Below are positions 2,712-26,815 of a DNA stretch of 64,000 bases, one piece after another. This DNA comes from Tubulanus polymorphus. Lineage: Eukaryota; Nemertea; Palaeonemertea; Tubulaniformes; Tubulanidae. Positions within the stretch are counted from its first letter, which is position 1. Each line of letters begins with the position of its first letter. The notes under the pieces were generated by a model that had not been told where the DNA came from, did not search any database, and saw nothing but the letters and a program-made list of their open reading frames with translations. The position numbers and the translations under genes are program-made. The stretch covers positions 8,404,231-8,468,230 of the forward strand of contig NC_134033.1 of NCBI RefSeq assembly GCF_964204645.1, written 5' to 3'.

Positions 2712-2730
2712 TTATTTAGCAAATAAATTA

Positions 2731-3248: not shown

Positions 3249-5203
3249 CTAATTTTTGAACAATTCATCAATTTTGTCCTTTGCCTCTAACGCGGCTTTA
3301 CGTGTAGATGGAATTCGATCAGGAATTTCCTTTGTAGTAACAACAGAAGGTTTCAATACATTGCTTTCAATTTCCAGAGGAAATAATTTCGAAATCGGTC
3401 TATTTGTAACACCGTTCGCGGTTTTAACTGTTGCCGATCTTACGAGACCATCAGTGCTCTTATGTAAGTGTTCAATGATACCTAGTTTCCATTTAAGTCT
3501 CGGTACATTATCATCATGTATAATTACAACTGAACCCGGTTTGGCTATTTCTCTGTTATCTCCTGTTACTCTATGAAACTCCCGGAGATTTACCAAGTAC
3601 TCCTTTTGCCAACGTAGCCAAAAGGAATAAATGAGTTTATTAATATAAGAATAACGTTTTGCTAAAGTATCTGAACCGGGAGAAAACGTTGTATCACCTT
3701 CGAGATTATCAATAGGACACAGTTTAGAATGAGCGGTTATACGCCTCCCCAGCATCAAATGAGATGGCGTTAGAGTCTCGTTTTCTTCTGGTTCAAAAGA
3801 AACATAAAGCAACGGACGGTCGTTCAGACACGACTCAATTTCACACGCTACAGTGTATAATTCAGTATCTGATACTAACGACCTACCTAAGACTTTCTTC
3901 AAACAGGATTTCATGAGACCTATCATACGCTCCCAGAAGCCCCCGTGCCAAGGGGCCCGTTTCGTGATGAATTTCCAGTCGACGTTCCGTTGTGAAAAAT
4001 GTCTGTGGATCTTCGAATCTTCGAAAATTTGCTTTAACTCCGAGTTAGCACCAATGAACGTAGAAGCGTTATCTGAAACGAGCATCCTTGGCACGGAGCG
4101 TCGGGCAACAAATCTCCTAAAAGCATAGAGAAAGTCTTCAGTAGTATTACTATTTACAATTTCTATATGTACACCGCGCGAAACAGCGCACGTAAACAAA
4201 CATATGTAGCGTTTCATACCGCCTCTACAACTAGAGGACCACAATAGTCCACCCCAACGTAACTAAATGCAGGTAATTCGTCAACTCTATACGATGGCAA
4301 CGTTGGTGGATCAGGTTTTTTGAATGGCTTTGCTTGTAGTCGACGACAAGGTACGCAACGTCGTACTTGCGATTTCACAAATTGTCGAATTTGTGGGATC
4401 CAAAATTTCCCTCTAATTTTGGCAACCGTCGTAGAAATACCAAAATGAAACACATCAAAATGAGCGTTGCGCACAATTAAATCGGCCAATCGAGAGTTCT
4501 TTGGAATCAAAATAGGAAACTTTGTTTCGTCGGGCAGGGACGTATTTTGTAACCGAACTTTACAGCGGATGACGCCGTCACTGTCGAGAAACAACTGTAG
4601 TTGGTCAATCAATGGAATTCGGTTCCCCGATCTACCTGACAAAAAATCTAATACAACAGAATAATGACTACTTTGAAAATGTTTTACCCATATAAGCTGA
4701 GCGTCTGTAATCTCGGAAGCACTAAGTGGACCTTTAGTACGCTCAGTACTTGAAGATTTCATGTTACTTACAAATCGACGCACTAACGCTGTAATTCTCA
4801 GTAATCTATACAAAAGAGCAAATGAATCAATGTTAATAACTTCAAAAACTGAAAACGTATTGTTTCCGAGTATATTATCACAATTATTTATCTCAACATT
4901 ACCGACAATCACAGTGGATTTCTCAACGAGAAGTTCAACTGGTCTACGAGACGCATTTACTAACCAATCAGGCCCGTGTAACCACAAATCACATTTCAAA
5001 ACTTCTGACATATTGCCTCTCGTTAGCAAATCTGCTGGATTTGATGCTGATTGACAATAATGCCAATTTTCAACGGGTAACGTATTTCTTATTTCTTCGA
5101 CTCGATTCGAAACAAATGTGGATAATTTCTTGGCCGTGTTTAGCCAACCAAGCACTATTTGACTGTCGCACCAGGCAAATATTTTCATTGGGCGATCAGG
5201 CAT
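3249..5203 (-). pseudogene. BEL/Pao pol: RNase H end, H2C2 zinc finger, integrase, DUF5641-type tail
   Basis: Two ORFs (4214-5203 and 3249-4244) overlap by 31 bp in different frames; one frameshift separates them. The first begins in RNase H (FAWCDSQIVLGWLNTA) and runs to the integrase zinc finger (HFDVFHFG, then RRCVPCRRLQ) and the first catalytic region (YVGVDYCGPL). The second carries the rest of the integrase core: SDNASTFIG with the second Asp, and RAPWHGGFWERMIGLMKSC with the Glu. It ends with the BEL-specific tail (DDNVPRLKWKLGIIEHL). The upstream reverse transcriptase is cut off by the insertion at 5204. Function when intact: cDNA integration. It now looks inactive. Confidence 0.92.
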
Positions 5204-7363
5204 CAGACCACAATTAGGTTAGTAGCTCGAAGATGCGTAGGGCCGGACCCCAAAAATAGTACCTAGAGTGAAGAAGAGGTCCCCCATAAATGTTGCCATA
5301 ATTTCTGCAAATGGGATAGGTAACGAATTTCGGTTATATGTATGAAATCCATTGATCCTGAGAGACAGATTGATGATGAAATAAGGGATTCCCTGGACTT
5401 TTTTTGCTTGGAGTAAGGGTACCAAACACGGTGGGGGATTCCCTCTTAGATATTTGGCTCGGATGTACTGGCATACCTGTACTGGGATACCCCTCCTTTC
5501 TAAAGGTTTGATTATTTCAAAAGTTGGGTTGGGTATGTGGGGCGAAAACCACTTCAATGCGTAGCTAAGATGCTGGCCTATGAGCCATAAGCAGGATTTC
5601 CCCTGAATTTACGCGCTTATATATGAACTAAACTCTCGAATTTCTTTTTTTTACTATAGGATTTAGAAGATTGTCTTGAAGTCGTCTTGAGGCATTCATT
5701 GAGACCTAATTCGCTGATTTTAATCAGTTTCATGGTAGGATTTGGTAATATTTTTGCTTGTAGAAGGCTAGAATAGCAGATTTCGGTCAATTTTTAAGGC
5801 ATGAACCGTAAGATATTTTCTCGTAGGAGGCTCGGTCTAGGCTCATAAATTTATTTCATAAAGGCCATCCTTGCCCATGCAGAATAATCACATTAATTCA
5901 GCTTTCTTTGATTAAGTTATCTAGTTTGGCTGACTTTTTGGTGCCAGATACTGTCAGGAATTTAAGGGGTAGGGGAAATGCATATTTTCGTTGAAACCAT
6001 GGCAACCGAAAGGACATTGTCAGAGGCCAGTTGTGATATTTTTCCTAACTAGTACTGGTGACAACTACGCTTGGTATATAAAATTCGTCCCGGCCGAATG
6101 CCTGTGGACGCAGTAGGGTTCATTGGAATTAGGCCTTCAGCGCAAGAAAACGCCAAATCTAAAGGTTTCAGCCAATTCGATGATGAAAATGGCATTTTTT
6201 CAAAAAATGCTTAAAGATTGTGTTTCTGATTTTTATCCATAGCCATATATTTATATCCATCAGTGAAAAAAATCTATCAAGTATTCAGAAAATGTTGTAT
6301 AATTGTTTTATTCATATTTTGAAATGAATGTTTGACTTAGATGATATTGATAGAAAACTTGGATTTTGTCGCATACGCGCGATTTGTGCATTAGCATGTA
6401 TTTCCATGTGTAATTGGCCGAGAGCTATTGTATTGCGTTGTATAACTAGCTAGTCTCCACTCTTTCTAAAACTGTACAAAAACTAATGCTATTCTTAAGT
6501 TTGGGTACTAGTCAGGCATCAGACCACAATTAGGTTAGTAGCTCGAAGATGCGTAGGGCCGGACCCAAAAATAGTACCTAGAGTGAAGAAGAGGTCCCCC
6601 ATAAATGTTGCCATAATTTCTGCAAATGGGATAGGTAACGAATTTCGGTTATATGTATGAAATCCATTGATCCTGAGAGACAGATTGATGATGAAATAAG
6701 GGATTCCCTGGACTTTTTTTGCTTGGAGTAAGGGTACCAAACACGGTGGGGGTGTCACAAACCGTTTGATCAAATCTGTCAACTAAGGGTTTAGCTCGTA
6801 GCTCTATTGTTGTCATAGTGTACTGTGCTGTAATCCCCTTTTTACGCTACGAATTTCCTGCTATAAACTCGTTCGCATACCTTGTTCTCGTCGCAATACG
6901 CCACCAGCCTACTTGACGGACGGATCTCGATGCATAGTTCGCAAACGAAGTTGTAAGTAATGTAATACATAGATTAATATTTGAATAATTAGACGTCATC
7001 TGTCTGATATGTAATTTGCATTTTCAGTTAACGGAAGTTCAATAAAGTATTCCTGTTAAAACCGTTTCGCAGTTACTTCTATGTTATCGCGAGGGCTCTG
7101 TCCCTGACAGGGGGATTCCCTTAGATATTTGGCTCGGATGTACTGGCATACCTGTACTGGGATACCCCTCCTTTCTAAAGGTTTGATTATTTCAAAAGTT
7201 AGGTTGGGTATGTGGGGCGAAAACCACTTCAATGCATAGCTATGATGCTGGCCTATGAGCCATAAGCAGGATTTCCCCTGAATTTACGCGCTTATATATG
7301 AACTAAACTCTCGAATTTCTTGTTTTTACTATAGGATATAGAAGATTTTGGAATAGTGGTCTG
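5204..7363. mobile_element. TIR-type DNA insertion in BEL pol, with internal duplication
   Basis: The insert starts CAGACCAC (5204-5211) and ends GTGGTCTG (7356-7363), and it splits the BEL reading frame exactly between RVIDEL and MPDRPMK. The first about 470 bp (5204-5672) recur as 6520-6752 plus 7110-7348. The 8-mer TCAGGCAT precedes both copies (5196-5203 and 6512-6519), as if 5204-6511 were a separate insertion with an 8-bp target duplication into an older one. I saw no transposase ORF. The middle (5673-6511) has no recognisable coding content. It is probably a non-autonomous hAT-like element or a pair of them; the classification is tentative. Confidence 0.65.
6753..7109 (+). repeat. solo LTR (357 bp) with GGGGG target duplication
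   Basis: It begins TGTCACAAACC and ends CCCTGACA. It is flanked by GGGGG at 6748-6752 and 7110-7114, where the parallel copy at 5430 has only one GGGGG before ATTCCC. An AATAAAG polyadenylation-like signal lies near 7037. No internal retroelement sequence is present, so it is the product of LTR-LTR recombination. Its parent family is not in this window. Confidence 0.88.
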
Positions 7364-8616
7364 AGCTCATCAATAACCCTAGACATAGAGTTCAATACAT
7401 GAGTAACCAATCGTGCGCCAATCAATGCACCCATTAGTTCGAGTTTAGGAACAGTGATTTCTTTGACTGGTGCCACCCTAGCTTTGGCTATTACTATAGA
7501 CGATTCGTCTTTACAAACTAGGTAAACCACTGCGCCATAGGCTAAAGTACTACTATCGCAGAATACGTGTAACTCTATCGGGTAATCTGTGATATACGAA
7601 TTCATAATCCGAGAGAATTTAGTATTCAAACATTCGTGTATGTCATTTACGATACAATGCCATGTTTTACATAGTTCTTGAGACGATGGATCATCCCAGT
7701 CATAATTTTGTTTCCAGATTGACTGCAAAAGGATTCTAGATCGAATGGTGACTGGTAAAAGTAAACCAAGTGGATCGTGGATAGAAGCAGCCTTTTGTAG
7801 GATGATATGTTTTGTCAATTGGGAATCACTAGACATGTCTTCGGTAACAAATGACATGAAATCACCCTCAACATGCCAGTACAGCCCGAAAACTTTAACT
7901 ACGGACGATTTCTCCAAAATTTCTTGTTTTGCAGCAGACTTCTGGAGCTCTGAGGAATTAGACGACCAACATCGTAAGTTAAAGTTAACTTCGGAGAAAC
8001 AATTACGTGAATCATGGAGAAATTTGACGGCTTCAAATTCAGAACGAACGCTAGTGACCACATTGTCTACATAAATGTCTCTCAGAAGCTGCTGTGACAA
8101 AGGAGAATCAATATTCCGTAGATGGAAAATAATGAAACTATTCAACAAAAATGGAGAGCACGTAGCTCCAAACAAGATGCGCTTGAATCTTAACACGATA
8201 AACTCACTCTCGGGATCATCGGGATTAACCAACCAAAAAAATCTAGTAGCATCGCGACACGACGGTTTAATAGATAACTGCAGGAAAGCCTTTTCAATGT
8301 CTGCAGTAATACCGAACTTTAAAATCCTAAAACGTATCATAATTGAGCAAAGATCATTCAATAACGGAGGTCCACTCTCTAAGCAATCGTTTAAAGAAAC
8401 TGATGACTTCGATTCTCGACAACTACAATCGAAAACTATCCGAATAGGCGTGGTTGATGATTGTCTGAAAATTGGATGGTGCGGTATATAGTGCTCGTGA
8501 CTATCTACAATGGAAGGATCAGTTACAATCTCAATGAAATCTTGTGCTAATTGATCTCGGATGATTTGGCTATAACTGTCTAATAAACCTGGCGTCTTAG
8601 CTAAACGTCTAACCAT
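7364..8616 (-). pseudogene. BEL/Pao reverse transcriptase, truncated by insertion
   Basis: The ORF is continuous from 8616 to the insertion border (the last native residues are RVIDEL). It shows the BEL/Pao reverse transcriptase core: PIRIVFDCSCRES, NDCLESGPPLL, ITADIEKAFLQL with the first catalytic Asp, RFKRILFGATCSPFLLN, and RDIYVDNVVTS at the active-site turn. The usual YVDD reads YVDN here, which would remove a catalytic Asp. The connection/RNase H lead-in (HVFCDSSTLAYGAVVYL) follows. The last residues of the open frame (beyond 7363) come from the inserted DNA. Confidence 0.9.
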
Positions 8617-9270
8617 GGAACGAGTCGTGCTTTTGCGAGGTTATAATTAGTTGGCAAAGTGTCGTGAATTCTTTTCCACGGCAAATCAACCATATATCGA
8701 CCATCAACTAATTGAATGGATGAATTACAAAACTCATCTAGAAACGAAGTATCACGGCTTGTTGGAGACTCAATACCAATAGTTTCTAATGACCAAAAAC
8801 GCTTAAGATCTGCGATATCAGGCTCAACTATAATAGAAAGAGTATGAACATTACAATTTGCCGTGTTACGATCGTTAAACTGACCGCCGATGAGATACCC
8901 TAATTTAGATGGAACAGCAACCGGACCACTTTCAGATTTAACAAATTCATTATCAACAACCTACGAGTAACGATATGTCAAACAAATCCACTAAATAACT
9001 AGGTGGGTGAGCGAGTTTAAGGGTTTTGAATTCAGCTAAACAAGAAACAGAATCAGTAGAAATTCGTAGTGGTCTGGTTATCTCCGGTACAACGATAACA
9101 TCTAACGAAACAATTGAGTCATCATACTCGCAAACGACATCTACGCGAACAACATTGACTCTTCTGAAACCGGTACTTCTACCCCCAAAACCGCTTAAGT
9201 CTATAGACTCAGTTCTATGAGTATCTACCCCTAGCTCGTCGGCTAATTTTGAGGTAATAAAACTACGGTG
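8617..9270 (-). pseudogene. BEL/Pao aspartic protease and linker region, broken frames
   Basis: No long ORF remains, but minus-strand translation in pieces gives BEL-like sequence. Just inside 9270 there is FITSKLADELG after the protease site LLLDDG of the upstream ORF; near 8800 there is FWSLETIGI; near 8640 there is LPTNYNLAKAR. These match the layout of A17-type protease plus linker before reverse transcriptase in BEL/Pao. Several stops and shifts make it non-functional. The start of the downstream ORF at 8616 is only the first Met after the last break. Confidence 0.65.
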
Positions 9271-9990
9271 CTACCCGTCGTCTAACAACAAATGACCACT
9301 GACCCGATTTCCGTTGGCCTGTACAGGTGCTATAGCAGTTTTCAGATAAACCGTTGATGGATAAGAAACTATATGATCATCAATAACTGAATGTTGACAA
9401 ATCTCTGATCCCGAATGATTATCAACGATGTGATTTGATTCTAAATTTGAATCAGAAACTGCATTTGTCCCAGAAACTGTACAAGATACGTGCTGCGTAA
9501 CGGCGTCCGTAAGAGACCTATCTACGATAGAATTAATATTCAAACGACTTGGAAAATTAGCCCCGTGTAAGCTGGTATGATGGCGCTTACGACAAGATCT
9601 ACAGGTTGACCTTGAAGGACATGTATACATGGTATGCTGACCCATACAATTGAAACATAATTTGTTCTTCAATACGTAATCTAAACGTGACTGTGCTGTG
9701 GTGAGAACGTCGCACTCAACCGGAAAATGCCTATCTGAACTACAATAACGACATTTGAATTTACGAACAGTGGTGGAATTTCCATTCGCATGGTGACCAG
9801 CATTTTTCCGGTTTTGATGTACATGGAGTGTTGTCATTGTACCAAATGATGACGATCCCGGTGACGTGTCGCAAACTTCTAATATGTTTATCTCAGTCAA
9901 TATAGCGGAACGGAGATCTTCCAGATTCAACTCAAAGTTACCGCGCGCTCGTGCAATGTTCCGTTTTATATCTGCCGGCAATTTATTCAA
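9271..9990 (-). pseudogene. BEL/Pao gag C-terminal part with CCHC knuckles and protease start
   Basis: The 239-codon ORF begins NKLPADIKRNIAR, a BEL gag segment. It carries cysteine-rich knuckles: FKCRYCSSDRHFPVEC, then KLCFNCMGQHTMYTC and STCRSCRKRHHTSLH. These would bind element RNA. It ends at a protease-like LLLDDG, where a stop codon cuts the catalytic motif. A break at about 9990-10036 separates it from the N-terminal gag. Confidence 0.88.
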
Positions 9991-10035
9991 TAGAATTGGT
10001 ACCAGAAGCGTGCCATATGAATCGGTTGATGTTTT

Positions 10036-10734
10036 TTAAGAGTCTAAACTGCGAATATGCATTTCAATCTTATCATAGAATTGGCGCAAAGATTTCAAAT
10101 TGTAATTCGGAGAATTCAATTCAATTAGTTGATCCAAATTCGCTTCCGTTATTTTATGCGCCTGTCCGAAACGGTTTTCAAGCAGTTCTTTCGCCTTTTC
10201 ATAGTTAATACTGGTCAATGGCAAACCTTCAATAGTTTGTTTCGCCTCATTTACCAGGTGACATTTCAAGTGACTGAATTTTTCTACGGGAGTTAAGTTT
10301 CTTTGCTCGTCAACCGTGGACTTAAATAGATCCCAAAAAGAACACCACTCGAGCAAATCTCCTGCAAATTTCGGTAACTGTAATTTCGGCAAAGATACAC
10401 GCTTACTGTTCGTTACTGAATTTTTGTCCGCAACGTTGGCAGACAACTGATTAAAAGCTAGTTCCAGAATGTTAATTTCAGTAAGACGCTCACACAGATA
10501 TTCATCTCCCGTGACGATAAATTCACTCAAATCTTTTCCTCTTAATTCGCACGCGATTATCAAGTCTTTTTCTATTTCTTCTAATTTCGAAAATTTATGT
10601 CTTAGAGTGAAAACGGTAGACATACCTTGAGCCGCGTCTTTTCCTTTCAAATGGTCATCACATTTGTTTTTCCATCGCGTGAATTGACCACGTTGCACCT
10701 TCCGTAGCTCCTTCAATCCTTCAAAGTCTGACAT
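10036..10734 (-). pseudogene. BEL/Pao gag N-terminal part (DUF1759-type)
   Basis: The 232-codon ORF starts 67 nt inside the 5' LTR. The core LPKLQLPKFAGDLLEW, WDLFKSTVDEQ and FSHLKCHL, with LLENRFGQ further on, is the hallmark of the DUF1759 capsid-like region of BEL/Pao gag. The frame ends at IRSLDS, where related elements continue toward NKLPADI, so a nonsense or frameshift mutation lies at about 10036. Confidence 0.88.
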
Positions 10735-10771
10735 ATCGTGAAATTCTGGTTCCTTCCCTCTTCAAATTCTG

Positions 10772-10800
10772 ACAAATGGATCCGGCTCGAGGGACCAAAA
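10772..10800 (-). other. candidate primer binding site of the BEL element
   Basis: Immediately inside the 5' LTR (right LTR, minus strand) the sequence reads TTTTGGTCCCTCGAGCCGG. A TGGTCC start after a few bases is typical for complementarity to a tRNA 3' end. The specific tRNA was not determined. Confidence 0.5.
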
Positions 10801-11101
10801 TGTAGTGACTGTGAACTACAAGGACGAACAGCGAACAGCGAACAGCGACGAGACATACGACCCAATCCGAATCCAACGAATACGTACAGCGAACGAAAAC
10901 AGAGAAGAACTCAAGAGACAACAAGGCAGTGTCTACAGTTACAAGGTTTGGTACGGTCTAACATTTATTGTGTTCAAAGGTTAGAGGAAAACGATCGGAA
11001 TAATGCATTTCTATGATTGGTCGAGAGACGTCAGTACTTCATGGTTCATGGCGAGAACACTTCAATGACTTTGTATTCCAGATAATCTGCTCGTCGTGAC
11101 A
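10801..11101 (-). repeat. BEL/Pao 5' LTR
   Basis: It is the partner of 2873-3173. It is followed by the TATTG duplication at 11102-11106, then by the Mav1 gene interrupted by the insertion. Confidence 0.93.
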
Positions 11102-11106
11102 TATTG

Positions 11107-11387
11107 GTTACCGCGTTATATAAACTCATTGCATCGCCAACTGATTGAAAATCTCTATGTGAAATCTTCTGATCATATAATTCTTTGTTAATATAATCCA
11201 CATAGTTTTGTCTCTTTTCTCTATATTCTTCTGCTGCTTTATTGTATTTTTCTAATGCTAAGTTATGTCTTTTTTGTTCGGTTAATGATCCATTTTTATC
11301 AATATGCTTAGATAAATAACCGCCACCAGTAAATGCTAAAGCGTTAACAATTGCCGATCCTATAATAGTTATAACTGCAAAAGCCAT
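11107..11387 (-). pseudogene. N-terminal half of the split small membrane protein gene (Mav1)
   Basis: It starts ATG at 11387 (MAFAVITIIGSAIVNALAF), a hydrophobic N-terminal segment of about 20 residues. A KRHNLALEKYNKAAEEY helix and DYINKELYDQKISHRDFQ follow. The protein stops at AVTN, where the BEL element enters; the remainder is at 2731-2867. The same gene occurs in Mav2 and Mav3 with different damage. The layout (N-terminal hydrophobic segment, charged helix, C-terminal membrane anchor) suggests a small virion membrane protein, but no function is known to me. Confidence 0.82.
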
Positions 11388-11411
11388 GTATTTAGCAAAA
11401 TAGTTATGTAT

Positions 11412-11631
11412 TTATATGGGAGGAATATATTTTTGTTTTTCTAAATAATCAATAGTTAAATTAGATAAAGTTACTGCTGATTAATTTTAAAATATCATTT
11501 ATATCAAATCTATCAACATTAACACTTCCCATTTTGAATACTTTTTTTAATACCATTGAATAACCAACAGTTCCAACTGATAGTAATGCTCCATTATATA
11601 ATCCAGTTATTATCCACTTATTATCACTCAT
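11412..11631 (-). pseudogene. small membrane protein (about 73 aa), Mav1 copy, frameshifted
   Basis: It is the counterpart of the intact 45751-45972 ORF in Mav3. The start ATG (11631) directly follows the stop of the upstream gene, forming TAAATG. The N-terminus matches WIITGLYNGALLSVGTVGYS, a hydrophobic segment, and the C-terminus ends YIPPI. A shift near 11475-11510 breaks the frame. Function unknown. Confidence 0.65.
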
Positions 11632-12017
11632 TTATTTATCAAAAAAATTACTATCTTCAAAATATTTAGTTAACTTAGTTATAATTATTTCAACATTTAT
11701 TTCATTACTAGTTTCATTTGTATATATTTCAATTATTATTTTTTAATATCATCGATGATAAAATCTAACTATTTCATCTAATTTTTTCTAAGGTCTTCAT
11801 CTAATTCATAAAATCTTAAAGATTCTCTAATTAAATTAGTAATCTTTTCTACATTTAAAGTTTCTTTATCTATTGTTGTTTCATACTCAAATGTTGTTTC
11901 ATTAGAAAATGCAATATTTTTAATATGTGTAATTACATCATTAATGTTAAATTTCATTTCTTTCTCACGTTTAAAATCAAACCCAAAACATATACTCGGT
12001 CCAACAGTTATATTCAT
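11632..12017 (-). pseudogene. small conserved protein (about 128 aa), Mav1 copy, frameshifted
   Basis: It starts MNITVGPSICFGFDFKRE at 12017 after TATATAA. The first frame ends at 11778, but homologous sequence continues to a stop at 11632-11634, which abuts the next start. It is predicted soluble and mostly alpha-helical, rich in Asn, Ile and Lys. No known domain is recognised. Counterparts: 25327-25682 and 45424-45744. Confidence 0.65.
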
Positions 12018-12033
12018 TTATATAATGAAAAAA

Positions 12034-12789
12034 TTACTCTCTACATTTTATAACTAATTCATATATCACAGGAAAGTTATTTAAATCAATTAAATAACCA
12101 TTATGATTTCTTATTTCTAATTTGAAATTATTGAAATGTGGAATGAAAGGTTTAAAATCACATTCTGTTAAATTATAATTTATTTGAGTTCGAAATTGTT
12201 TGACATTTTTTAATGGTAAAATATTTAATAAACCAGAATTACAAATTGTATCTTTAGTTGCTTCGAATGTTTTTGTAGGATCAATTAGATTACAATAAAT
12301 ATAGAAGTGCGTAAAAGGTATTATATTTGGTGTAGTATCAACATTTGAATAAACTTTATTTGGATTAACTCCTAGCATTTTAGCTAATGGTTTTCTTACT
12401 ATGAATTTATATTGTTCATTAGTTAACTTTTTTCTTATTTTATTAGTACTATCAATTTTATTAAATTTAATGTTAAACCCAACAGATTCACCCACTTTTA
12501 ACCAAGCTCTTTTATTAATTTCTTGAGATAATGTTACTAAATTATATAATCCTGGTCTTAGAAATAGATGATACCATTTATCCATATTTCTATCATGAAT
12601 CATAAACAATCTATGATCAAAACTTTTATCCGATTTATTGTAAAAAGAATTACATAAACTTATATTAACTAATTTTAAATCAACACAATTCTTGAATTCT
12701 CTATCTAATTGAACTAATAAATTATGTGATTTATGATTTGTAAGTTTTCTAGAATCAACAAATATTCTATATTCTTTTAATTCTACCAT
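12034..12789 (-). CDS. predicted jelly-roll minor virion protein (251 aa), Mav1 copy
   Basis: This is the only intact copy of the three (others at 24556-25310 and 44621-45407). It starts MVELKEYRIFVDSRKL. The sequence alternates short hydrophobic strands: HNLLVQLDREF, LYNLVTLSQEINKRA, FIVRKPLAKMLGV, FTHFYIYCNLIDPT, and the end FPVIYELVIKCRE. The combination of a G-x-Y strand before a helix, an LAKMLG helix and a final strand reminds me of the minor capsid (penton-like) proteins of animal Mavericks. That assignment is from memory of the family and was not tested. It is the first gene of the structural block and lies divergent to the zinc-ribbon gene. Confidence 0.6.
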   Translation of the reverse strand: MVELKEYRIFVDSRKLTNHKSHNLLVQLDREFKNCVDLKLVNISLCNSFYNKSDKSFDHRLFMIHDRNMDKWYHLFLRPGLYNLVTLSQEINKRAWLKVGESVGFNIKFNKIDSTNKIRKKLTNEQYKFIVRKPLAKMLGVNPNKVYSNVDTTPNIIPFTHFYIYCNLIDPTKTFEATKDTICNSGLLNILPLKNVKQFRTQINYNLTECDFKPFIPHFNNFKLEIRNHNGYLIDLNNFPVIYELVIKCRE

Positions 12790-12857
12790 TATTTATAACA
12801 TAAGAAAATTAACGCTCGTCACTAAAAATAAATTTTTATAAAATTTTTCCTAAATAA

Positions 12858-14170
12858 ATGGATGAGAAGATACCATGCGAAATTTGTGGTGAACTTCTAA
12901 GAAAAAGTAATATGGCTCAAAATATGAAAAAACATGATGAAAATTATAAACCCCCTAAAATAAACTGCCGAAAATGTAATAAATTATTCTCAAGGAGTTA
13001 TGTTAAAAAACATTTAGAGAAGTGTAAAATTAATGGCGCAACGGTTAATGTTGATAGTAACGAAAGTAATAGTAATTCTGTTGAAGTTGAACCTGAAATT
13101 ATTTGGAAAAGACCTTTCTTATTCTATGATAAGGATATTATGAAAGTTCATTTCTGCGAGCCTTGTCGAATGAAATTTAGTCCTGAAAATATAGAAGCTT
13201 GGGAGAATCATCAATTTCGTAAAATACATATAGATAAAATTTCTAATAAATTTGAAGCAGAATTCAATGGAAGAAAAAATAATATATTTGAAAAAATGAA
13301 ATATGAGAAAATGTTACCAGATAATAAAGAAACAGTTGAAAAGTTAAAACAATATAATGAATTAACAAGAAAAACATTGTAAATATTGTAAATTGATTAT
13401 TACAACAAGTAATTCAAATCTACATAATAGAACAATAAAACATAAAGAAAACGTAAGAAAATACCAAGAGCTTTAATGAAGATCTATTACCAATAAATTA
13501 TAAACAAAAATGCCCACAATGTAGTTATGCGACCTTAAGACAAGAAGGTACTGTGTTATTTTGTAATGAATGTGGATGGCAAAGAAATTTATGGGGTGAA
13601 GAAAAAACTAGAGATTTTCTCATAGAACCAAAATTAAATTATCTAGATGAAATTTTTAAAATATTTTCTATAGAAGATCGTACACCAGAATATATGCAAT
13701 GGCTTGAAAAAATGAAAATAATAGAAAATAAAAATGGCGAAATAACTAAAAAAGATATTATAAAAACAATTATTCCATCAACATTTAACACAAAACGAAA
13801 GAAAATGTATTTATATTTATTATTTAACGATTATTATGAAAAACCTAAATTAACAGAAGATGATATGAAAAAAACATTCAAACAAATATTAATGTATTAT
13901 TTGGAAAATAGAATAACAGATTCAATTAATTATGGATTCTTTTTAAATAAGATTGTAAATTATTTAAACATCGATATTATAATTCCATTTGACGAATTAA
14001 CAAACAAAAAGAAACAAAGAGAGCGAGATGAAATGTGGCACAATATAACACGTTATTTAAATGAGAAAAATGAAATGGAAGAACCTAAACAAATTATACA
14101 AGAACAATTAAATGAAAAAGAAGAAACCAATAGTGATTTCGAGTTTGATGATATTGATTTTATAATTTAA
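12858..14170 (+). pseudogene. zinc-finger plus zinc-ribbon protein, Mav1 copy, frameshifted
   Basis: The first ORF (12858-13382) has paired C2H2-like fingers (IPCEICGELL ending in H-x3-H, then INCRKCNKLFSRSYVKKH) and a third CEPCRMKF site. After a break (13383-13552) the sequence continues as 13553-14170. A zinc ribbon spans the break (CPQC at about 13510, then CNECGWQ at 13562). An acidic C-terminus (DFEFDDIDFII) closes the protein. The 3' end overlaps the PolB 3' end by 4 bp, tail to tail. A DNA-binding or transcription role is inferred; see the finding on the promoter motif. Confidence 0.72.
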
Positions 14171-14622
14171 TAACCATAAGGTAATGTTTTTATACCATCA
14201 TCTAAAATATGCCTTTTATCATCAAATGGATTCAAACTAGTTTTTTCAACTTCATTAATGTACATCTCGTGATCTTGTGATCTTAAACAATTCATTTTGT
14301 GTTTCATTACAATTGAGTTATATAAACACTTTATATAATCTTGAAATTCTATATGTTTATCAACCACATGTTTTGTTATTCCTTTTAACTTTTTAGCTTC
14401 ATGATCTTTTGTTCTATAACTATACAATTTACTTCTTATCCCGACAAATTCAATCATTTCATCACCCCCTAATTCATCTTTAAATTTACCAGGAATCTTT
14501 TCATTATCATTGCTAAATAGTTCATGATCTTTAGGATAATTGCTAAAATCGAAATGATGTTTTAATGTTTTTAAGTCTTTTGTTATGTCATTTGTCTTGA
14601 TTTTTAGTATGTAGGCGTCAGT

Positions 14623-15687
14623 ATTTTTGGCTATTAATGGAAATCCACAGTTAAATGTACCATGTTCAGTTGATAAATCATAAACATAATCTGTTGGGTT
14701 ATATATTTCAAATAAATCTTTAACTTCTTCTGTTAACTCATTTTCTACATGGCTTAAATTAAAACAATTTGGTTTAGATTTAATCAATCCAATATTCATA
14801 TTAAAACCTAATGAATTGCATAATATATTTAATCCTGATATAGCAACTTTTCCTTTTTGAGCTAAAGATATAGTTTTGCGGTTTTTGAAACTTTTAGTAC
14901 CATCTGCTGCGTAGAATCCAATGAAGAACCATTTTCTTAAATTATTTTTTGCATTTAATACATAATCTGGAACTATCTTTTCTTTAGTTGAAGTATTACT
15001 TTTCACTATTGCATGAATATAGAATTCGTCATTATATTTTATAGCAAAATCTTTAGGATTATTCACATGTATTCTATAACATTGCGATGATTTCATAACA
15101 TCTATGATTTTAAATGTTTTATGTGAATAAACTTCTTCACAGAATTTCTTTATTCTTTCTAATAATTTCAAATCTTGATTGCATAAATACCAACAATATT
15201 GAGTGTGATAAAGATAATTATACACACCTGCTGAACCATCACCCATGAAAAATCCTTTGATAAAATATTCTTTTTCTTCTAATGTTTCGGGTTCTATATT
15301 ATAAATATTATCAATAATTTCATCGAATGACATATGATTCATTCTTTGGAAAAATCTTTTATGTAATAATTCATCTCCAATTTTTATATCAGTTGGTTTT
15401 ATTTCATCGCCATTTCGTTTAATTAAACTATGATCTTCTGTAACATCTACAAACCCTAATTTAGTTCTAACTCTATAGATTTTCTTATTTGTTTTATGCC
15501 TAATAATATTCTTTAATTTTTTCCATCCATTTCTTGTCCAAACATCCATTAAGCCATTTATTTGTATTAATTCTTTTTCACCATATGAAATATAACATTC
15601 ATTTTGTTTTGGAATTATTTCTGAAATTCTTCTTATCAATATTTTATCATTACATTTTAATAATATTGGGGTGTCAGCTGTTACAGA
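14623..15687 (-). other. intein with LAGLIDADG endonuclease in Mav1 PolB (355 aa), intact frame
   Basis: The intein begins Ser (TCT at 15685-15687) after YFD and ends Asn (14623-14625) before TDAY, so excision restores the YFDTD motif C. Splicing block A is SVTADTPILLKC. Block B is VDVTEDHSL with the conserved Thr and His. Block F is YVYDLSTEHGTF, and block G is PLIAKN followed by Thr. Between them are two LAGLIDADG-type motifs, IKGFFMGDGSAG and FFIGFYAADGT, both with their Asp. The penultimate residue is Lys where His is usual. This matches the PolB motif-C site used by archaeal and giant-virus inteins. The reading frame is unbroken. Confidence 0.93.
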
Positions 15688-18031
15688 ATCAAAATATAAT
15701 ATTTCAATATGCTTTTCCCCAAAAAGTGGTTGTAAAACATTATAATAAAAATCATACATTAATAATTTTGATACTTCTAAAACAGTTGAACCAATGAATA
15801 TAGGTTTATTAAATTTCATTGACGTTCTTTTTAATTTAACTGCTGTTAAATAATCTTCAAATCTTTTATTTCCCAAATGTCTAGGACTTGATTGTAAATG
15901 TCTTAATCTTTCAGAATTATTTACTAATTCAATATCATTTCTATTTCTAATATTTTCACATGTTTTACCATAAAAACTATTATTCATTAATTTAAAGAAA
16001 TCTTTTTCAAAATCTGTTTTTGATATGGTTCTCTGTTGAGTATTAAAATCTATATATTTTTCTAACCACTTCGATTGATTAAATTCAATATATCTATGTA
16101 CTTTCTTTAATTTCATTCCTTGTTTTAGATAAAATTTTAACATTCTATAATGAACAATGTAATTGTATTTATTATTTTGAGTAAGTATTAATTTTTCTGT
16201 AAAATTATGATCTTTCGGTTTTATTTTCTTCTTTCTTCTGGTATTCACTTAAATAACTATCATCTACGACTAAATGTTCTGGGCAATAAGGTAAGTTTCT
16301 TGTTTTAAACTTTATATTTTCAGGATATTCTAAATCAACTACAAAGAAATAACCAATTGGTGCTTCATCTTTTAAACTCGCAATTGCGCTTTCCCAATCA
16401 GTTTTATCACCATTTTCAACTTCTGTTAATATAAAATTTTTATATGGTTGAGGTTGCATCATTGCCCAGCCATATAAATTATTGGCGTCAATATATAATA
16501 ATTTATATTCATCATTTGCTTTAAAATATCTATCTCCCATAACACCACTAATTCCACCTCTAATTGATTTTTCAAATTATAAAACAATATCTATATTTGT
16601 TAACAAATCCATTTTTGTATCTGTAAATTTTAAACCACATTGCCAGGTTAAACCAGGACTAGAGTAGCAATAGCAGGGATCAACATTAAAATGATTCAAA
16701 TTGACTTCTCTAAATTTTTCAAATATATCGGCTAATATCATAACATCTGATTTTAAGTAAAGATCAACTAATTCACCATGATTTTTAAAATTGAAATGAT
16801 TCCATATATTCAATGTTTTATGAAAAACTTCATCTTTCACGTACTCATTTTTTAATTGATCATAAAATTGTTCTTTCATTAATTTTGTTTCTTTGAAATC
16901 ATCATGCGTTTTATAAAATGAGTAAGGTATTGCGCCTTTATTTCTCAATAATTTAAAATCTTGTTCATTTGGATAATAATATCGAGTTATTATAAAATCA
17001 TTATCAACTAAACTTTTTGATAAATTATCTAATGAACTTGCTAGAAATCTATAAGAATCTAAAAATCTAATGCAACCAAATTGAAATGAAATATAATTTT
17101 CAGATGTTTTAGCTAATAGTTTAAAATCATATTTTCTTACATTTACACCATTCATAGCATTATATTCTTCTATTTCTTGATTAATTGCGCCCGATATTCC
17201 CGATAATTGTTTTATAAATAGATGGGCATCATAGCCTGATAAATCATGAAATAATATTGGAACGAAATTTACTTTTTTTAGCTTGTAAATTACAATCTTC
17301 ATGAGCAGCTCCATGATATTTTGAATTTAAATGATCATGATCTCTAACTTTTTTATCAAATGAATAAAAACGTTTTTCACAATAACAACAATGGGTTGCA
17401 TAATTAAAATCAATTTCATCTTCTTTTGTCATAACTATTCTTTTATTTTTGTTTAATAATTCTGCAAAATCACTTTCTAATTCAATTATTTTGTTACAAA
17501 AATTATTAACTACATCTTCACCTCTAAAAGAAATATATTGACTTTCATATAATTCAGGATAATTTGATTTTATGTAAATTCCATAAGCAGCAGCTCTTTG
17601 ATGAACTTTTTTAATTGTATTTATAATTGGCGGGTCTTGAATTATATCTTCATTTAGTTCATTTCCTTTATCCATTGATTTAATAATTGCTTTTTGTTGT
17701 ATATTTCTTTTCTATCTTGATTAGTTAATTCTTTATTCAACGATTCAAAATCCCCATAAATTACAAATGGAACAATATTTTTAAATTTACGATTAGTAAA
17801 TCTCAATTTATAATCTTTTTCTGTTGGCATTATTAATTTACAAAAATCTTTATTATCACATAATTCTTCATGTTTTAATAATGTATTCTCAGTCATTAAT
17901 TTAGATAAACATTTTCAACATAGATAAATTTTATTATGGTGATCGCTTTCTGTTCTAAAGAATAAATCAATTTGTTTTAACCACATATAATGTTCATTTT
18001 CATCTTTTTTTTAAATATAACAAATCTATAG

Positions 18032-18037
18032 CATTTT
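18032..18037. repeat. target duplication of Mav2, left copy (CATTTT)
   Basis: It matches CATTTC at 34674-34679 with one mismatch. Both lie in the Mav1 PolB gene, and Mav2's own PolB shows the uninterrupted sequence at that place. Six bases is the Maverick/Polinton rule. Confidence 0.85.
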
Positions 18038-18122
18038 AGTAATTAGAAGATGGCGTTTTCATACCAGAGTACTAGAGTACTAGACACCACTCATCACCAC
18101 AAGTAATTTTTTTTCCTAATAA
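18038..18122. repeat. Mav2 left terminal inverted repeat
   Basis: It starts AGTAATTAGAAGATGGCG and contains a CCAGAGTACTAGAGTACTAG repeat, then CTCATCACCACAAG before the T-run and PolB start. Its inverse lies at 34614-34673 plus 34414-34447. The same 85-bp layout with GTACGAG in place of GTACTAG ends Mav1 at 35885-35969. Confidence 0.92.
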
Positions 18123-21100
18123 ATGGGGGAGAATGAACACCAGCCAGAAAACAATAATGTTAATGAAAATCAATATCATTGTCCATATTGTAAAAAATAC
18201 ATTAATAAATCTAATAAATCTCATCATGAAAAATCTGCAAATCATATAAAAAATATAATAGATTTTAAAACTCCAGAAAATTCCAATGAAAGAAAAGAAC
18301 GATTAGAAAATATGAATGTGGATGAAATAAAATGTGAAGTTTGTAATGAATTTATAGTAAAAAGGAATTATAAAAGACATATCAAATCACAAAAACACCA
18401 TCAAAATTTGAGTAATGATATTTTAGGAATAGATTATTTCGATGATAAACCTCAACAAGTAAAAAAACCAACTTCAAAAACTAAATCCATTTCAAATAAA
18501 CCTTACATGGAAAATGTTAGAAATTATATTGATTCACTAGAAATAAAAGATACAATTGAAATTTTAGAAACATTACATTCTAAAATTGGTCCTGCGGCTA
18601 TTATATTTAGATTCTTTAAAGGAACAACAATAGAAGATTATAGTAAATTTAATGAAATAATAGAAAAAATACTAGTTTTGATAACAGATGTTGAATATCC
18701 AAAAATTAATATCTCTGGGTAAGTAAGTTTTATAAAGTCAGAAGATAAAATGGATTATAGTATTCAAACACTCTCTGAAGAAATAATTTCAAAAACGCAA
18801 ATAAAAGAGAAGTTAGAAAAAATATTTAATGAATTTAAACGTCATATTGAAGAGAGATATTTAAAGGGTTCTGGTTTAACACTGAATGGAATTATATTTT
18901 TAGATTTAAATGTTTATAATACAAAAAGGAATAAAACATCAAAAAGTAAAACAATGTTTAAAAATGACTCAAACTTTACAACAGAAAAGGATATTAAAGC
19001 ATCAAGTTATATTAAATTACCATTTACAACAAAAGCAGTAATAAATGTTCAAAATGAAGATAATAAATGTTTTCTATGGTCAATTATTAGTTGCTTACAC
19101 CCAACAGAAGATATTACGCATAGTTTTAGAATAACAAATTACCGGAAATATGAAACATTAAATAAAATTGATCAATATCCAGTAACTATAAAAATGATAC
19201 CCAAAATAGAAAAAATTAATAAGTTAAGAATAAATGTATTCGAATTAATGCAATTACCAAAGACAAAAGGTGAAAATATTAAAGATTATACATTGGAAGC
19301 TTTATATTTAACAGAATATTATGATGATGAAAATGCTATAGATTTGTTATATTACAAAAAAGATGAATATGAACATTATATGTGGTTAAAACAAATTGAT
19401 TTATTCTTTAGAACAGAAAGTGATTTTAACAGTCATAAAATCTATCTATGTAGAAAATGTTTATCTAAATTTAGAACTGAGAATGCGTTACTAAAACATA
19501 AAGAATTATGTGATAATAAAGATTTTTGCAAATTAATAATGCCAACAGAAAAAGATTATAAATTGAAATTTACTACTCATAAATTTAAAAATATTGTTCC
19601 ATTTGTAATTTATGGGGATTTTGAATCGTTGAATAAAGAATTAACTGATCAAGATAGAAAAGAAATATATAACAAAAAGCAATTATTAAAATCAATGGAT
19701 AAAGGAAATGAATTAAATGAAGACACAACACAAGACCCGCCAATTATAAATACAATTAAAAAAGTTCATCAAAGAGCTGCTGCATATGGAATTTATATAA
19801 AATCAAATTATCCCGAATTATATGAAAGTCAATATATTTCTTTTAGAGGTGAAGATGTAGTTAATGATTTTTGTAACAAAATGATTGAATTAGAAAGTGA
19901 TTTTGCAAAATTATTAAACAAAAATAAAAGAATATTTATGACAAAAGAAGATGAAATTGATTTTAAGTATGCAACTCATTGTTGTTATTGTGAAAAACGT
20001 TTTTATTCATTTGATAAAAAAGTTAGAGATCATGATCATTTAAATTAAAAAATATCGTGGAGCTGCTCATGAAGATTGTAATTTACATGCTAAAAAAGTA
20101 AATTTCGTACCAATATTATTTCATAATTTATCAGGTTATGATACCCATCTATTTATAAAACAATTATCAAGGAAATTGGGCACAATTAATCAAGAAATAG
20201 AAGAATATAATGCTATGAATGGTGTAAATGTAAGAAAATATGATTTTAAACTATTAGCTAAAACATCTGAGAATTATATTTCATTTCAATTTGGTTGCAT
20301 TAGATTTTTAGATTCTTATAGATTTCTAGCAAGTTCATTAGATAATTTATCAAAAAGTTTAGTTGATAATGATTTTATAATAACTCGATATTATTATCCA
20401 AATGACCAAGATTTTAAATTATTGAGATATAAAGGTGCAATTCCTTATTCATTTTATAAAACACACAATGATTTTAATGTAACAGAATTATTAAAAGATC
20501 AATTTTATGATCAATTAAAAGAGGAGTATGTGAAAGACGAAGTGTTTAATAGAACATTAAATATTTAGAACCATTTTAAGATGAAAAATCATGGGGAATT
20601 AGTTGATTTATATTTAAAATCAGATGTTATGATATTGGCTGACATATTTGAAAAATTTAGAGAAGTTAATTTGAATCATTTTAATGTTGATCCTTGTTAT
20701 TGCTACTCTAGTCCTGGTTTAACCTGGCAATGTGGTTTAAAATATACAAATGTAGAATTAGATTTATTAAAAGAACCAGATATGGTTTTATTATTTGAAA
20801 AATCATTTAGAGGTGGAATTAGTGGTGTTATGGGAGATAGATATTTTAAAGCAAATGATGAATATAAATTATTATATATTGACGCCAATAATTTATATGG
20901 TTGGGCAATGATGCAACCTCAACCATATAAAAATTTTATATTAACAGAAGTTGAAAATGATGATAAAACTAATTGGGAAAGCGCAATTATGAGTTTAGAA
21001 GATGAAGCGCCAATTGGTTATTTCTTTGTAGTTGATTTAGAATATCCCGAAAATATAAAGTTTAAAACAAGAAACTTACCTTATTGCCCAGAACATTTAA

Positions 21101-23191
21101 CCGTAGATGATAGTTATTTAAGTGAATACCAGAAGAAAATAAAACCGAAAGATCATGTTTTTACAGAAAAATTAATACTTACTCAAAATAATAAATACAA
21201 TTACATTGTTCATTATAGAATGTTAAAATTTTATCTAAAACAAGGAATGAAATTAAAGAAAGTACATAGATATATTGAATTTAATCAATCGAAGTGGTTA
21301 GAAAAATATATAGATTTTAATACTCAACAGAGAACCATATCAAAAACAGATTTTGAAAAAGATTTCTTCAAATTAATGAACAATAGTTTTTATGGTAAAA
21401 CATGTGAAAATATTAGAAATAGAAATGATATTGAATTAGTAAATAATTCTGAAAGATTAAGACATTTACAATCAAGTCCTAGACATTTAGGAAATAAAAG
21501 ATTTGAAGATTATTTAACAGCAGTTAAATTAAAAAGAACGTCAATGAAATTTGATAAACCTATATTCATTGGTTCAACTGTTTTAGAAGTATCAAAATTA
21601 TTAATGTATGATTTTTATTATAATGTTTTACAACCACTTTTTGGGGAAAAGCATATTGAAATATTATATTTTGATTCTGTAACAGCTGACACCCCAATAT
21701 TATTAAAATGTAATGATAAAATATTGATAAGAAGAATTTCAGAAATAATTCCAAAACAAAATGAATGTTATATTTCATATGGTGAAAAAGAATTAATACA
21801 AATAAATGGCTTAATGGATGTTTGGACAAGAAATGGATGGAAAAAATTAAAGAATATTATTAGGCATAAAACAAATAAGAAAATCTATAGAGTTAGAACT
21901 AAATTAGGGTTTGTAGATGTTACAGAAGACCATAGTTTAATTAAACGAAATGGTGATGAAATAAAACCACCTGATATAAAAATTGGAGATGAATTATTAC
22001 ATAAAAGATTTTTCCAAAGAATGAATCATATGTCATTTGATGAAATAATTGATAATATTTATAACATAGAACCCGAAACATTAGAAGAAAAAGAATATTT
22101 TATCAAAGGATTTTTCATGGGTGATGGTTCAGCAGGCGTGTATAATTATGTTTGGGGTAATAAATATTGTTGGTATTCATGCAATCAAGACTTAAAATTA
22201 TTAGAAAGAATTAAGAAATTCTGTGAAGAAGTTTATTCACATAAAACATTCAAAATCATAGATGTTATGAAATCATCGCAATGTTATAGAATACATGTGA
22301 ATAATCCTAAAGATTTTGCTATAAAATATAATGATGAATTCTATATTCATGCAATAGTGAAAAGTAATACTTCAACAAAAGAAAAGATAGTACCAGATTA
22401 TGTATTAAATGCAAAAAATAATTTAAGAAAGTGGTTCTTCATTGGATTCTATGCCGCAGATGGCACTAAAAAATTTACAAAGGATAAAAAGATAACATTT
22501 GCACAGAAAGGAAAAGTATCAGGATTAAATATATTATGCAGTTCATTAGGATTTAATATGAATATAGAATTAATTAAATCTAAACCAATTTGTTTTAATA
22601 TAAGGCATGTAGAAAAAGAATTAACAGAAGAAGTTAAAGATTTATTTGAAATATATAACCCAACAGATTATGTTTATGATTTATCAACAGATGATGGAAC
22701 ATTCAATTCTGGGTTCCCATCAATCCAAAAAAAATACCGACAGTTACATACTAAAAATCAAGACAAATGACATAACAAAAGACTTAAAAACATTAAAACA
22801 TCATTTTGATTTTAGCAATTATCCCAAAGATCATGAACTATTTAGCAATGATAATAAAAAGATTCCTGGTAAGTTTAAAGATGAATTAGGGGGTGATGAA
22901 ATGATTGAATTTGTTGGGATAAGAAGTAAAATGTATAGTTACAGAACAAAAGATCATGAAGCTAAAAAGTTAAAAGGAATAACAAAATATGTGGTTGATA
23001 AACATATAGAATTTCAAGATTATATAAAGTGTTTATATAACTCAATTGTAATGAAACATAAAATGAATTGTTTAAGATCAGAAGATCACGAGATGTACAT
23101 TAATGAAGTTGAAAAAACTAGTTTGAATCCATTTGATGATAAAAGACATATTTCAGATGATGGTATAAAAACATTACCTTATGGCCATTAA
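18123..23191 (+). pseudogene. polB: Mav2 DNA polymerase B with N-terminal zinc fingers and decayed intein
   Basis: It starts MGENEHQPEN at 18123 in the TAATAAATG context. Two C2H2-like fingers (HCPYCKKYINKSNKSHH; IKCEVCNEFIVKRNYKRH) come first. An in-frame TAA at 18721 replaces the AAA of the other copies. A 432-codon piece follows (CLHP region, C2H2 finger LCRKCLSKF, Exo I YGDFESLN, HNH-like motif). A frameshift sits at about 20045 and a nonsense TAG at 20566, then 729 open codons with Exo III, motifs A and B, and the intein. A shift at the intein end (about 22720) breaks the polymerase before TDSYI-like sequence. Original length would be near 1,690 residues including the intein. Confidence 0.92.
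21676..22735 (+). other. intein in Mav2 PolB, C-terminal splice junction destroyed
   Basis: The N-terminal half is the same as in Mav1: Ser1 after YFD, SVTADTPILL, VTEDHSL, FFMGDGSAG and FIGFYAADGT. Near the end the block F Cys-Gly context reads FNSGFPSIQ. An expanded A-run at about 22727-22734 shifts the frame, so the terminal Asn and the following Thr-Asp are lost from the frame. Splicing of this copy is not possible as read. Confidence 0.9.
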
Positions 23192-24497
23192 AACATAAAA
23201 TCAATATCATCATACTCGAAATCACTATTGGCTTCTTCATTTTCATTTAATTGTTCTTGTATAATTTGTTTAGGTTCTTCTTCCATTTCATTTTTCTCAT
23301 TTAAATAAAGTTTTATCTTGTTCCACATTTCATCTCGCTCTCTTTGTTTCTTTTTGTTTGTTAATTCGTCAAATGGAATTATAATATCTATGTTTGAATA
23401 ATTTACAATCTGATTTAAAAAGAATTCATAATTAATTGAATCTGTTATTCTATTTTCCAAATGATACATTAATATTTGTTTGAATATTTTTTTTATATTT
23501 TCCATATCTTCTTCTGTTAATTTAGGTTTTTCATAATAATCGTTAAATAATAAATATAAATACATTTTCTTTTGTTTTGTGTTAAATTTTGACGGAATAA
23601 TTGTTTTTATAATATCTTTTTTAGTTATTTCACCATTTTTTTCTATTATTTTCATTTTTTCAAGCCATTGCATATATTCTGGTGTATGATCTTCTATAGA
23701 AAATATTTTAAAAATTTCATCTAGATAATTTAATTTTGGATCTATGAGAAAATTTCTAGTTTTTTCTTCACCCCATAAATTCTTTTGCCATCCACAATCA
23801 ACACAAAATAACACAGTACCTTCTTGTCTTAAGGTCGCGTAATTACATTGTGGACATTTTCGTTTATAATCTATTGGTAATAGATCTTTTCTTACGCCTT
23901 CTTTATGTTTTATTGTTCTATTATGTAGATTTGAATTACTTGTTGTAATAATCAATTTACAATATTTACAATAATATGTTTTTCTTGTTAATTCATTATA
24001 TTTTTTTTTCTAACTTTTCAACTGTTTCTTTATCTGGTAACGTTTTCTCATATTTTATTTTTTCTAATAAACTATTTTTTCTTTCATTGAATTCAGTTTC
24101 AAATTTATTAGAAATTTTATCTATATGTAATTTACGAAATTGATGATTCTCCCAATCTTCTATATTTTCAGGGCTATATTTTACTCGACAAGGCTCGCAG
24201 AAATGATCTTTTATATTATCCTTATCATAGAATAAGAAAGGTCTTTTCCAAATACCTTCAGGTTCAACTTCAGCAGAATTACTATTACTTTCATTACTAT
24301 CAACATTAGCCGTTGCACCATTAATTTTACACTTCTCTGAATGTTTTTTAACATAATTTCTTGAGAATAATTTATTACATTTTGGACAGTTTAGTTTAGG
24401 GGGTTTATAATTTTCATCATGTTTTTTTCATATGTCGAGCCATATTACTTTTTCTTAGAAGTTCACCACAAATTTCACATGCTATCGTCTCATCCAT
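23188..24497 (-). pseudogene. zinc-finger plus zinc-ribbon protein, Mav2 copy
   Basis: It starts ATG at 24497 with a T-run just upstream on its strand. An early frameshift near 24425 and another near 24000 separate the finger region from a 255-codon open piece (23188-23955). That piece carries the zinc ribbon KRKCPQCNYATLRQEG, then VLFCVDCGWQ. Helical sequence follows (TPEYMQWLEKMKII; KKMYLYLLFNDYYEKP), and an acidic tail DFEYDDIDFMF. The C-x2-C...C-x2-C-G ribbon with a helical domain is reminiscent of viral late transcription factors (VLTF3) and TFIIB/TFIIS ribbons; I cannot distinguish these by eye. It overlaps PolB tail-to-tail by 4 bp. Confidence 0.72.
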
Positions 24498-24555
24498 TTA
24501 TTAGGGAAAAAAATTACTTGTGGTGATGAGTGGTAATTTTTTTATGTTATAAATA

Positions 24556-25310
24556 ATGGTAGAATTAAAAGAATACAGAAAATTTGTTGATTCTAGAAAA
24601 CTTACAAATTATAAATCACATAATTTACTAGTTCAATTAGATAGAGAATTTAAGAATTGTGAAGATTTAAAATTAGTTAATATAAGTTTATGTAACTCAT
24701 TTTACAATATATCGGATAAAAGTTTTGATCATAGATTGTTTATGATTCATGATAAAAATATGGATAAATGGTATAATCTATTTCTAAGAACAGGATTATA
24801 TAATTTAGAAACATTATCTCAAGAAATTAATAGAAGAGCTCGGCTAAAAGTGGGTGAATTTGTTGGGTTTAACATTAAATTTAATAAAATTGAAAGTACT
24901 AATAAAATAAGAATAAAGTTAACTAATGAACAATATAAATTCATAGTAAGAAAACCATTAGCTAAAATGCTAGGAGTTAATCCAAATAAAGTTTATTCAA
25001 ATGTTGATACTACACCAAATATAATACCTTTTACGCACTTCTATATTTATTGTAATTTAATTGATCCTACAAAAACATTCGAAGCAACTAAAGATACAAT
25101 TTGTAATTCTGGTTTATTAAATATTTTACTATTAAAAATGTCAAACAATTTGGAACTGAAATAAATTATAATTTAACTGAATGTGATTTCAAACCATGTA
25201 TTCCACATTTTAATAATTTTAGATTAGAAATAAGAAATCATAATGGTTATTTAATTGATTTGAATAACTTTCCTGTGATATATGAATTAGTTATAAGATG
25301 TAGAGAGTAA
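24556..25310 (+). pseudogene. predicted jelly-roll minor virion protein, Mav2 copy, frameshifted near the 3' end
   Basis: It is 202 open codons followed by a frameshift near 25135 in the KNVKQF region. The remaining sequence to the stop at 25308-25310 still matches the Mav1 protein end (YELVIRCRE). It is otherwise close to the intact Mav1 copy at 12034-12789. It lies divergent to the zinc-ribbon gene with 58 bp between starts, a likely bidirectional promoter region. Confidence 0.7.
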
Positions 25311-25329
25311 TTTTTTCATTATATAAATG
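25311..25329 (+). promoter_or_regulatory. T-run plus TATAAATG start motif
   Basis: A T-run directly follows the stop codon of the upstream gene, and ATATAAATG overlaps the next start, with 10 nt between run and ATG. The same arrangement recurs before most genes of the three elements. Confidence 0.6.
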
Positions 25330-25903: not shown

Positions 25904-25927
25904 ATGCGTAATTATTTTACTAAATAA

Positions 25928-26345: not shown

Positions 26346-26348
26346 TAA

Positions 26349-26799: not shown

Positions 26800-26815
26800 T
26801 TTTTTAATTATATAA

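Follow-up and report, generated by a model that had tools for sequence, protein, structure and literature searches.

An intein with a LAGLIDADG endonuclease splits motif C (YFD/TDAY) of the protein-primed B-family DNA polymerase (pPolB) of a Maverick/Polinton element in the 64,000-nucleotide stretch of DNA analysed here, hereafter the window. The window carries three Maverick copies (A, B and C), each with an intein that directly follows the motif-C codon GAT (Table 1). We consider it highly probable that this is a bifunctional class 1 intein of the pol-c type, pol-c being the name of this PolB motif-C insertion site, and that it was anciently captured by Mavericks and persists by homing between element copies. 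The original prediction had described copy A, and its coordinates, its 355 codons, the initial Ser, the terminal Asn followed by Thr and the two LAGLIDADG motifs are all exact, to which the strand (minus) can be added; its reading of the segment as an intein with a LAGLIDADG endonuclease at the motif-C site of a Maverick polymerase holds. The two further intein-bearing copies in the window and the polymerase frame breaks in all three copies go beyond it.

Anatomy of the intein

The copy A intein begins with Ser after ...LYFD, ends with Asn before TDAYILK and is enclosed by an open frame at 14170-16248 of the minus strand; the plus strand at 14623-15687 holds many stops in the translated frame. 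Within motif C, the insertion point falls between the first Asp and T/C-D. Both TIGR01445 (intein_Nterm; 29.4 bits, cut-off 24.5, E 1.2e-6) and Pfam LAGLIDADG_3 (26.6 bits, cut-off 22.5) match copy A above their cut-offs, whereas Pfam Intein_splicing, at 28.6 bits and E 1.4e-6, falls below its curated cut-off of 35.8. In addition, a relative was found with 47% identity spanning all 355 residues (E 1.1e-90). Taken together with the predicted structure, these profile matches and this relative make copy A more than a chance resemblance.

Two splicing motifs lie in the N-terminal half of the intein, block A (SVTADTPI) and, with the TxxH motif T83-E-D-H86, block B (VDVTEDHSLI). Ser1, T83 and H86 are invariant in 7/7 Maverick rows, and the acidic LAGLIDADG residues D150 and D262 in 32/32 rows. 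The predicted model (predicted local distance difference test score, pLDDT, 92.1) matches solved intein-endonucleases; mini-inteins at structural ranks 6-13 superpose at a root-mean-square deviation of 2.1-2.5 over 145-149 residues, I-DmoI is also among the matches, and the best named ones among predicted viral proteins are the PolB pol-c inteins of a phycodnavirus (C1IWE3), Pandoravirus hades, Marseillevirus LCMAC103 and Megavirus courdo11. Of the features of a class 1 intein, the nucleophile Ser1, the block B TxxH, Asn355 followed by Thr and, in the model, the Hint fold are present. One could regard the segment as an ordinary non-splicing pPolB insertion or a chance open reading frame, given the sub-threshold Intein_splicing score and the other nuclease insertions mentioned for polinton pPolBs in a passage of PMC11071308, but this is hardly credible in view of the TIGR01445 score, the structural match across the whole intein, the invariant splicing residues and the exact empty sites described below.

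According to the proposed mechanism, the Hint domain would excise itself from the polymerase precursor by an N-to-O acyl shift at Ser1, transesterification to Thr+1 and cyclisation of Asn355. With YFD and TDAY joined again, the polymerase would regain motif C, which it needs in order to function. In Maverick polymerase genes that lack the intein, the motif-C codons would be the target cut by the LAGLIDADG domain, and the intein would be copied into the cut gene when a filled copy serves as the template for repair, a process known as homing.

Empty sites and distribution on the extein tree

The original prediction would have been refuted by different borders in empty-site alignments; the predicted border is borne out by relatives that lack the intein. 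Among 212 proteins, retrieved by an intein search plus an N-extein search (best 120 of 7476), motif C is uninterrupted in 110, and in 110/110 of these the flanks join gaplessly at the predicted border, the residue that follows being Thr in 65 and Cys in 45. The flanks are separated by 331-348 residues in six further proteins; 81 proteins with a weak or too short N flank and 15 with a weak C flank were set aside, nine of the latter showing DSVT (the intein start) after Asp. Filled rows with empty relatives at 86-95% identity are P0214, P0003, P0213 and the window; among the matches listed, none is nearer to the window polymerase than the empty P0094 (86% identical). Full-length, open intein-bearing pPolBs are represented by P0214 (1537 residues, from a 136-member cluster), P0215 (1693 residues) and P0232 (1504 residues). 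The inteins of several other filled rows are truncated or disrupted, those of P0113 and P0119 aligning across just 58 and 66 residues.

On a tree of the N-extein only (126 rows, 16 filled and 110 empty, branch support by the Shimodaira-Hasegawa-like approximate likelihood ratio test only), which omits P0001, P0004, P0008 and P0213, filled proteins whose N-extein is short, and rests on a non-random sample, as one retrieval targeted inteins deliberately, the filled rows are scattered: 14 changes are needed, at least 9 of them forced by supported branches. Shuffled labels require 15.3 changes on average, with 14 reached in 73-88 of 500 shufflings, and hence the filled label is hardly clustered. 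Such a mixture of filled and empty relatives is expected if the intein copies itself from element to element.

Selection on the intein

Comparison between copies shows purifying selection on the endonuclease region. The ratio of non-synonymous to synonymous substitution rates (dN/dS) for this region, unfiltered, is 0.17 between copies A and B (bootstrap 0.09-0.30) and 0.23 between A and C (0.11-0.43), values that come from three copies and blend the time before and after their decay. For the splicing part, the corresponding ratios are 0.18 (0.05-0.50) and 0.31 (0.11-0.76), and for the extein, filtered for local identity, 0.18-0.20. The low ratios imply that selection maintained the endonuclease over a large part of the period since these lineages separated, each copy having decayed later. 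A domesticated or regulatory splicing element, with an inactive endonuclease and an intein that does no more than delay polymerase activation, has nothing particular to this locus in its favour and is very improbable given this selection, the invariance of both acidic LAGLIDADG residues and the existence of close empty relatives that manage without an intein. Like the ordinary insertion and the chance open reading frame, this reading was rejected.

Homing or vertical descent

Several observations weigh against an active intein that persists by homing, beyond the deliberate component of the sample and the mixed time depth of the dN/dS values mentioned above. The polymerase gene is frame-broken in all three window copies, which, the frames being broken, would make no working polymerase as they stand and look like relics, unless the frame breaks are sequencing errors. 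Lys354 precedes the terminal Asn, a position occupied in Maverick inteins by His (8/11), Lys (2/11) or Ser (1/11); since a penultimate His is usual but not universal in class 1 inteins, and not defining, Lys354 does not exclude membership. The +1 residue is Thr in 10/11 Maverick inteins and Ala in P0001, and therefore not every copy looks splicing-competent. Only two relatives bear names that hint at their origin, the empty P0099 and P0006, the latter filed under a metagenome-assembled genome of Candidatus Thiodiazotropha (ex Ctena), a clam symbiont, and probably clam DNA. Furthermore, the approximately unbiased (AU) test that rejects a single clade of filled rows on the N-extein tree (p = 1.45e-5) was carried out with the tree already known, and four of 10 filled rows (P0004, P0006, P0008 and P0232) have no close empty relative, the best being 50-56% identical within the sample. 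Finally, intein and extein identities are strongly concordant at depth in Mantel tests (r 0.915, p 0.0028 for 7 rows; r 0.928, p 0.0002 for 10 rows), which argues for long co-descent and against frequent transfer between distant Mavericks.

This concordance, together with the single clade formed by the Maverick inteins and the filled rows that lack a close empty relative, speaks for vertical descent with many losses, in which a single entry into a Maverick ancestor was followed by repeated precise loss and little or no homing. We nevertheless regard it as unlikely, because at least 9 changes are forced on the extein tree, filled copies have empty relatives at 90-95% identity, the endonuclease region has a dN/dS well under 1, and neither gap nor leftover is seen at any of the 110 empty sites, an outcome that repeated DNA deletion would rarely yield. 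The pattern is hence read as long residence in Maverick lineages combined with repeated local spread and absence, resembling a homing cycle, rather than as free exchange among distant Mavericks.

Origin of the intein

The 11 Maverick inteins form one clade both in a first tree of 145 proteins plus the window, from which 32 near-identical inteins of 146 were removed (support 100), and in a wider tree built from a 51-row set minus P0060, P0065, P0251 and P0267, with 12 of 63 other rows as outgroup (100/100). With this chosen 12-row outgroup, the Maverick clade is sister to 22 inteins (95/91), whose host proteins include two PolBs that tested Pol-delta-like (P0253 and P0306) and three phage-like polymerases (P0009-P0011); a 14-row set outside the Maverick and sister inteins includes the Pol-delta-like P0223. 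P0011 hits phrog_262 at 1.9e-163, and P0009 and P0010 appear phage-like as well on account of their 62% and 72% identity to P0011. The Pol-delta-like rows presumably represent giant viruses. Acquisition from a large DNA virus, raised as a possibility in the original prediction, is consistent with the trees; a single ancient acquisition, with the PolB of such a virus as the source, is the likeliest but not the only reading, since the sister group also has the three phage-like polymerases.

When the Maverick intein alignment was run against contigs, five loci were obtained from genome contigs, all in bacterial or archaeal records, and 41 from viral contigs; at E up to 1e-3, Maverick exteins matched none of the 49 intein loci from three scans (3 + 5 + 41). 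Contig scans with the window N-extein and with P0306 returned no relative, and the phage collection yielded two weak records with 27-28% identity. A PolB intein with a 35% match over residues 1-348 was also seen on a contig of a Lokiarchaeota metagenome-assembled genome (L004, 10001-10984).

The host of the Maverick elements

Element A is interrupted by a BEL/Pao retrotransposon, which arrived after the Maverick, as its nested position and the 97% similarity of its long terminal repeats (LTRs) show. BEL/Pao elements are not known outside animals, and the nested element points to an animal host; the animal assignment, also made in the original prediction, is based here on this element. A protist host or a contaminating contig could be considered, as polintons live in protists too according to a passage of PMC11071308, but this appears quite improbable, since the nested element carries Peptidase_A17, DUF1759 and DUF5641 and belongs to a subclass termed metazoan, though without a statement of exclusiveness, in PMC3118150.

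The three Maverick elements

Within the upstream polymerase pieces of copy A, PF03175 (protein-primed PolB) matches at 16580-17326 of the minus strand (9.2e-10). Element B has the size and the repeats of a Maverick/Polinton (15-20 kb, long terminal inverted repeats); its capsid is represented by a weak Capsid_N match (9.4e-4, below cut-off), and no target-site duplication, which in Maverick/Polinton elements measures 6 bp, was found at its ends. A weak Endonuclease VII-like signature lies in the pPolB upstream of the exonuclease region at 39772-40269 (plus; 0.046) and 17247-17711 (minus; 0.61), and is clearer in the relatives P0232 (3.3e-8) and P0107 (3e-7). Given this signature and the intein endonuclease, the Maverick pPolB may combine its exonuclease with two further nuclease domains.

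An inverted repeat (93%) flanks element C at or just beyond its ends (37520-37945 and 53880-54323), and a tandem duplication of about 815 bp with 99.5% identity inside this element (47022-48653) is either recent or an assembly artefact. Element B contains a minisatellite of 97-bp units (32673-32921) with counterparts in element C near 52704, and the right flank of the window an imperfect palindrome of about 416 bases (63360-63775; 77.6%).

Table 1. Features of the Maverick elements and their inteins in the window
Feature	Position	Strand	Remarks
Intein copy A	14623..15687	minus	355 codons, stop-free; Ser1 to Asn355, +1 residue Thr
N-terminal splicing (Hint) half, residues 1-112	15352..15687	minus	TIGR01445 match; boundary set by eye on the model
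LAGLIDADG endonuclease region, residues 113-317	14737..15351	minus	Pfam LAGLIDADG_3; acidic residues D150, D262; I-DmoI matches
First LAGLIDADG motif, GFFMGDGSAG	15226..15255	minus	
Second LAGLIDADG motif, GFYAADGT	14896..14919	minus	
C-terminal splicing half, residues 318-355	14623..14736	minus	block F YVYDLSTEHGTFNCGF, block G PLIAKN, then Thr
N-extein part in the frame of the intein	15688..16248	minus	ends ...EILYFD, start of PolB motif C
C-extein, TDAYILK... to pPolB end	14167..14622	minus	stop codon included
Upstream pPolB pieces of copy A, other frames	16208..17914	minus	16208-16576, 16580-17326 (PF03175), 17247-17711, 17657-17914
Intein copy B	21676..22735	plus	5' border as copy A; length 1060 nt (not divisible by 3); frame broken close to the C-terminal end
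Intein copy C	41743..42804	plus	borders as copy A; 1062 nt; internal frame breaks
Maverick element A	1..18037	minus	interrupted by retrotransposon; truncated at the window edge and close to element B
BEL/Pao LTR retrotransposon nested in element A	2873..11101	minus	LTRs 97% alike; Peptidase_A17, DUF1759, DUF5641
Maverick element B	18057..35950	plus	about 17.9 kb; terminal inverted repeats about 1.28 kb, 94%
Element B integrase	30920..32047	plus	rve core 3.6e-9, above cut-off; Chromo 8.2e-4, below cut-off
Element B packaging ATPase	32109..32654	plus	Pox_A32, 8.4e-8
Maverick element C	38187..53861	plus	right terminal repeat not seen

Relation to known inteins and significance

The Maverick inteins share the motif-C border and the Ser1...Asn/Thr form with the pol-c inteins of Pol-delta-like PolBs, presumably of large eukaryotic DNA viruses, to which they are sister in the intein tree. 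However, the latter reside in Pol-delta-like enzymes, whereas the host protein of those described here is the pPolB of an integrated Maverick, and they form a clade of their own (100/100). The intein-endonuclease PI-PkoII (2cw7), which has an archaeal host, comprises 537 residues as opposed to 355 here and is 22% identical over the aligned part. Fungal nuclear inteins such as VMA1/PI-SceI and Prp8 are likewise eukaryotic and nuclear, and PI-SceI matches structurally, but they ride in host genes while the Maverick intein rides in a mobile element.

Nuclease domains inserted in Polinton pPolBs have been described before: a passage of the preprint by Krupovic et al. 2024 (PMC11071308), citing Jeong 2023, mentions diverse homing endonuclease domains there and suggests intein invasions. 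In contrast to those insertions, the present one is a complete Hint plus LAGLIDADG intein that splits motif C and for which empty sites are demonstrated. The polinton pPolB insertions of Jeong and colleagues from 2023 are reportedly of the HNH and VSR types. Our search of open-licence papers, largely of titles and passages, turned up no metazoan Polinton described as carrying a Hint-LAGLIDADG intein in motif C; the mechanism is already known, and the location, motif C of an animal Polinton, is new as far as searched. The view of the original prediction that inteins are essentially unreported in animals agrees with the statement, in a passage of the survey by Green et al. (2018), that metazoan genomes are free of inteins, although the passage of PMC11071308 already links polinton pPolB endonucleases to intein invasions.

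A wider scenario, in which Polintons once, long ago, took up a large-virus PolB intein that has since homed repeatedly from Polinton to Polinton in a live cycle within animal genomes, splicing in animal cells is required for replication of the element, and Polintons bridge inteins between giant viruses and animals, stands in our judgement at an even balance. Inteins in animal Polintons would qualify the statement that metazoan genomes lack them, and they would constitute a selfish nest of three levels, an intein in a virus-like element in an animal chromosome. Moreover, homing would become testable in a multi-copy setting where filled targets are closely related to empty ones.
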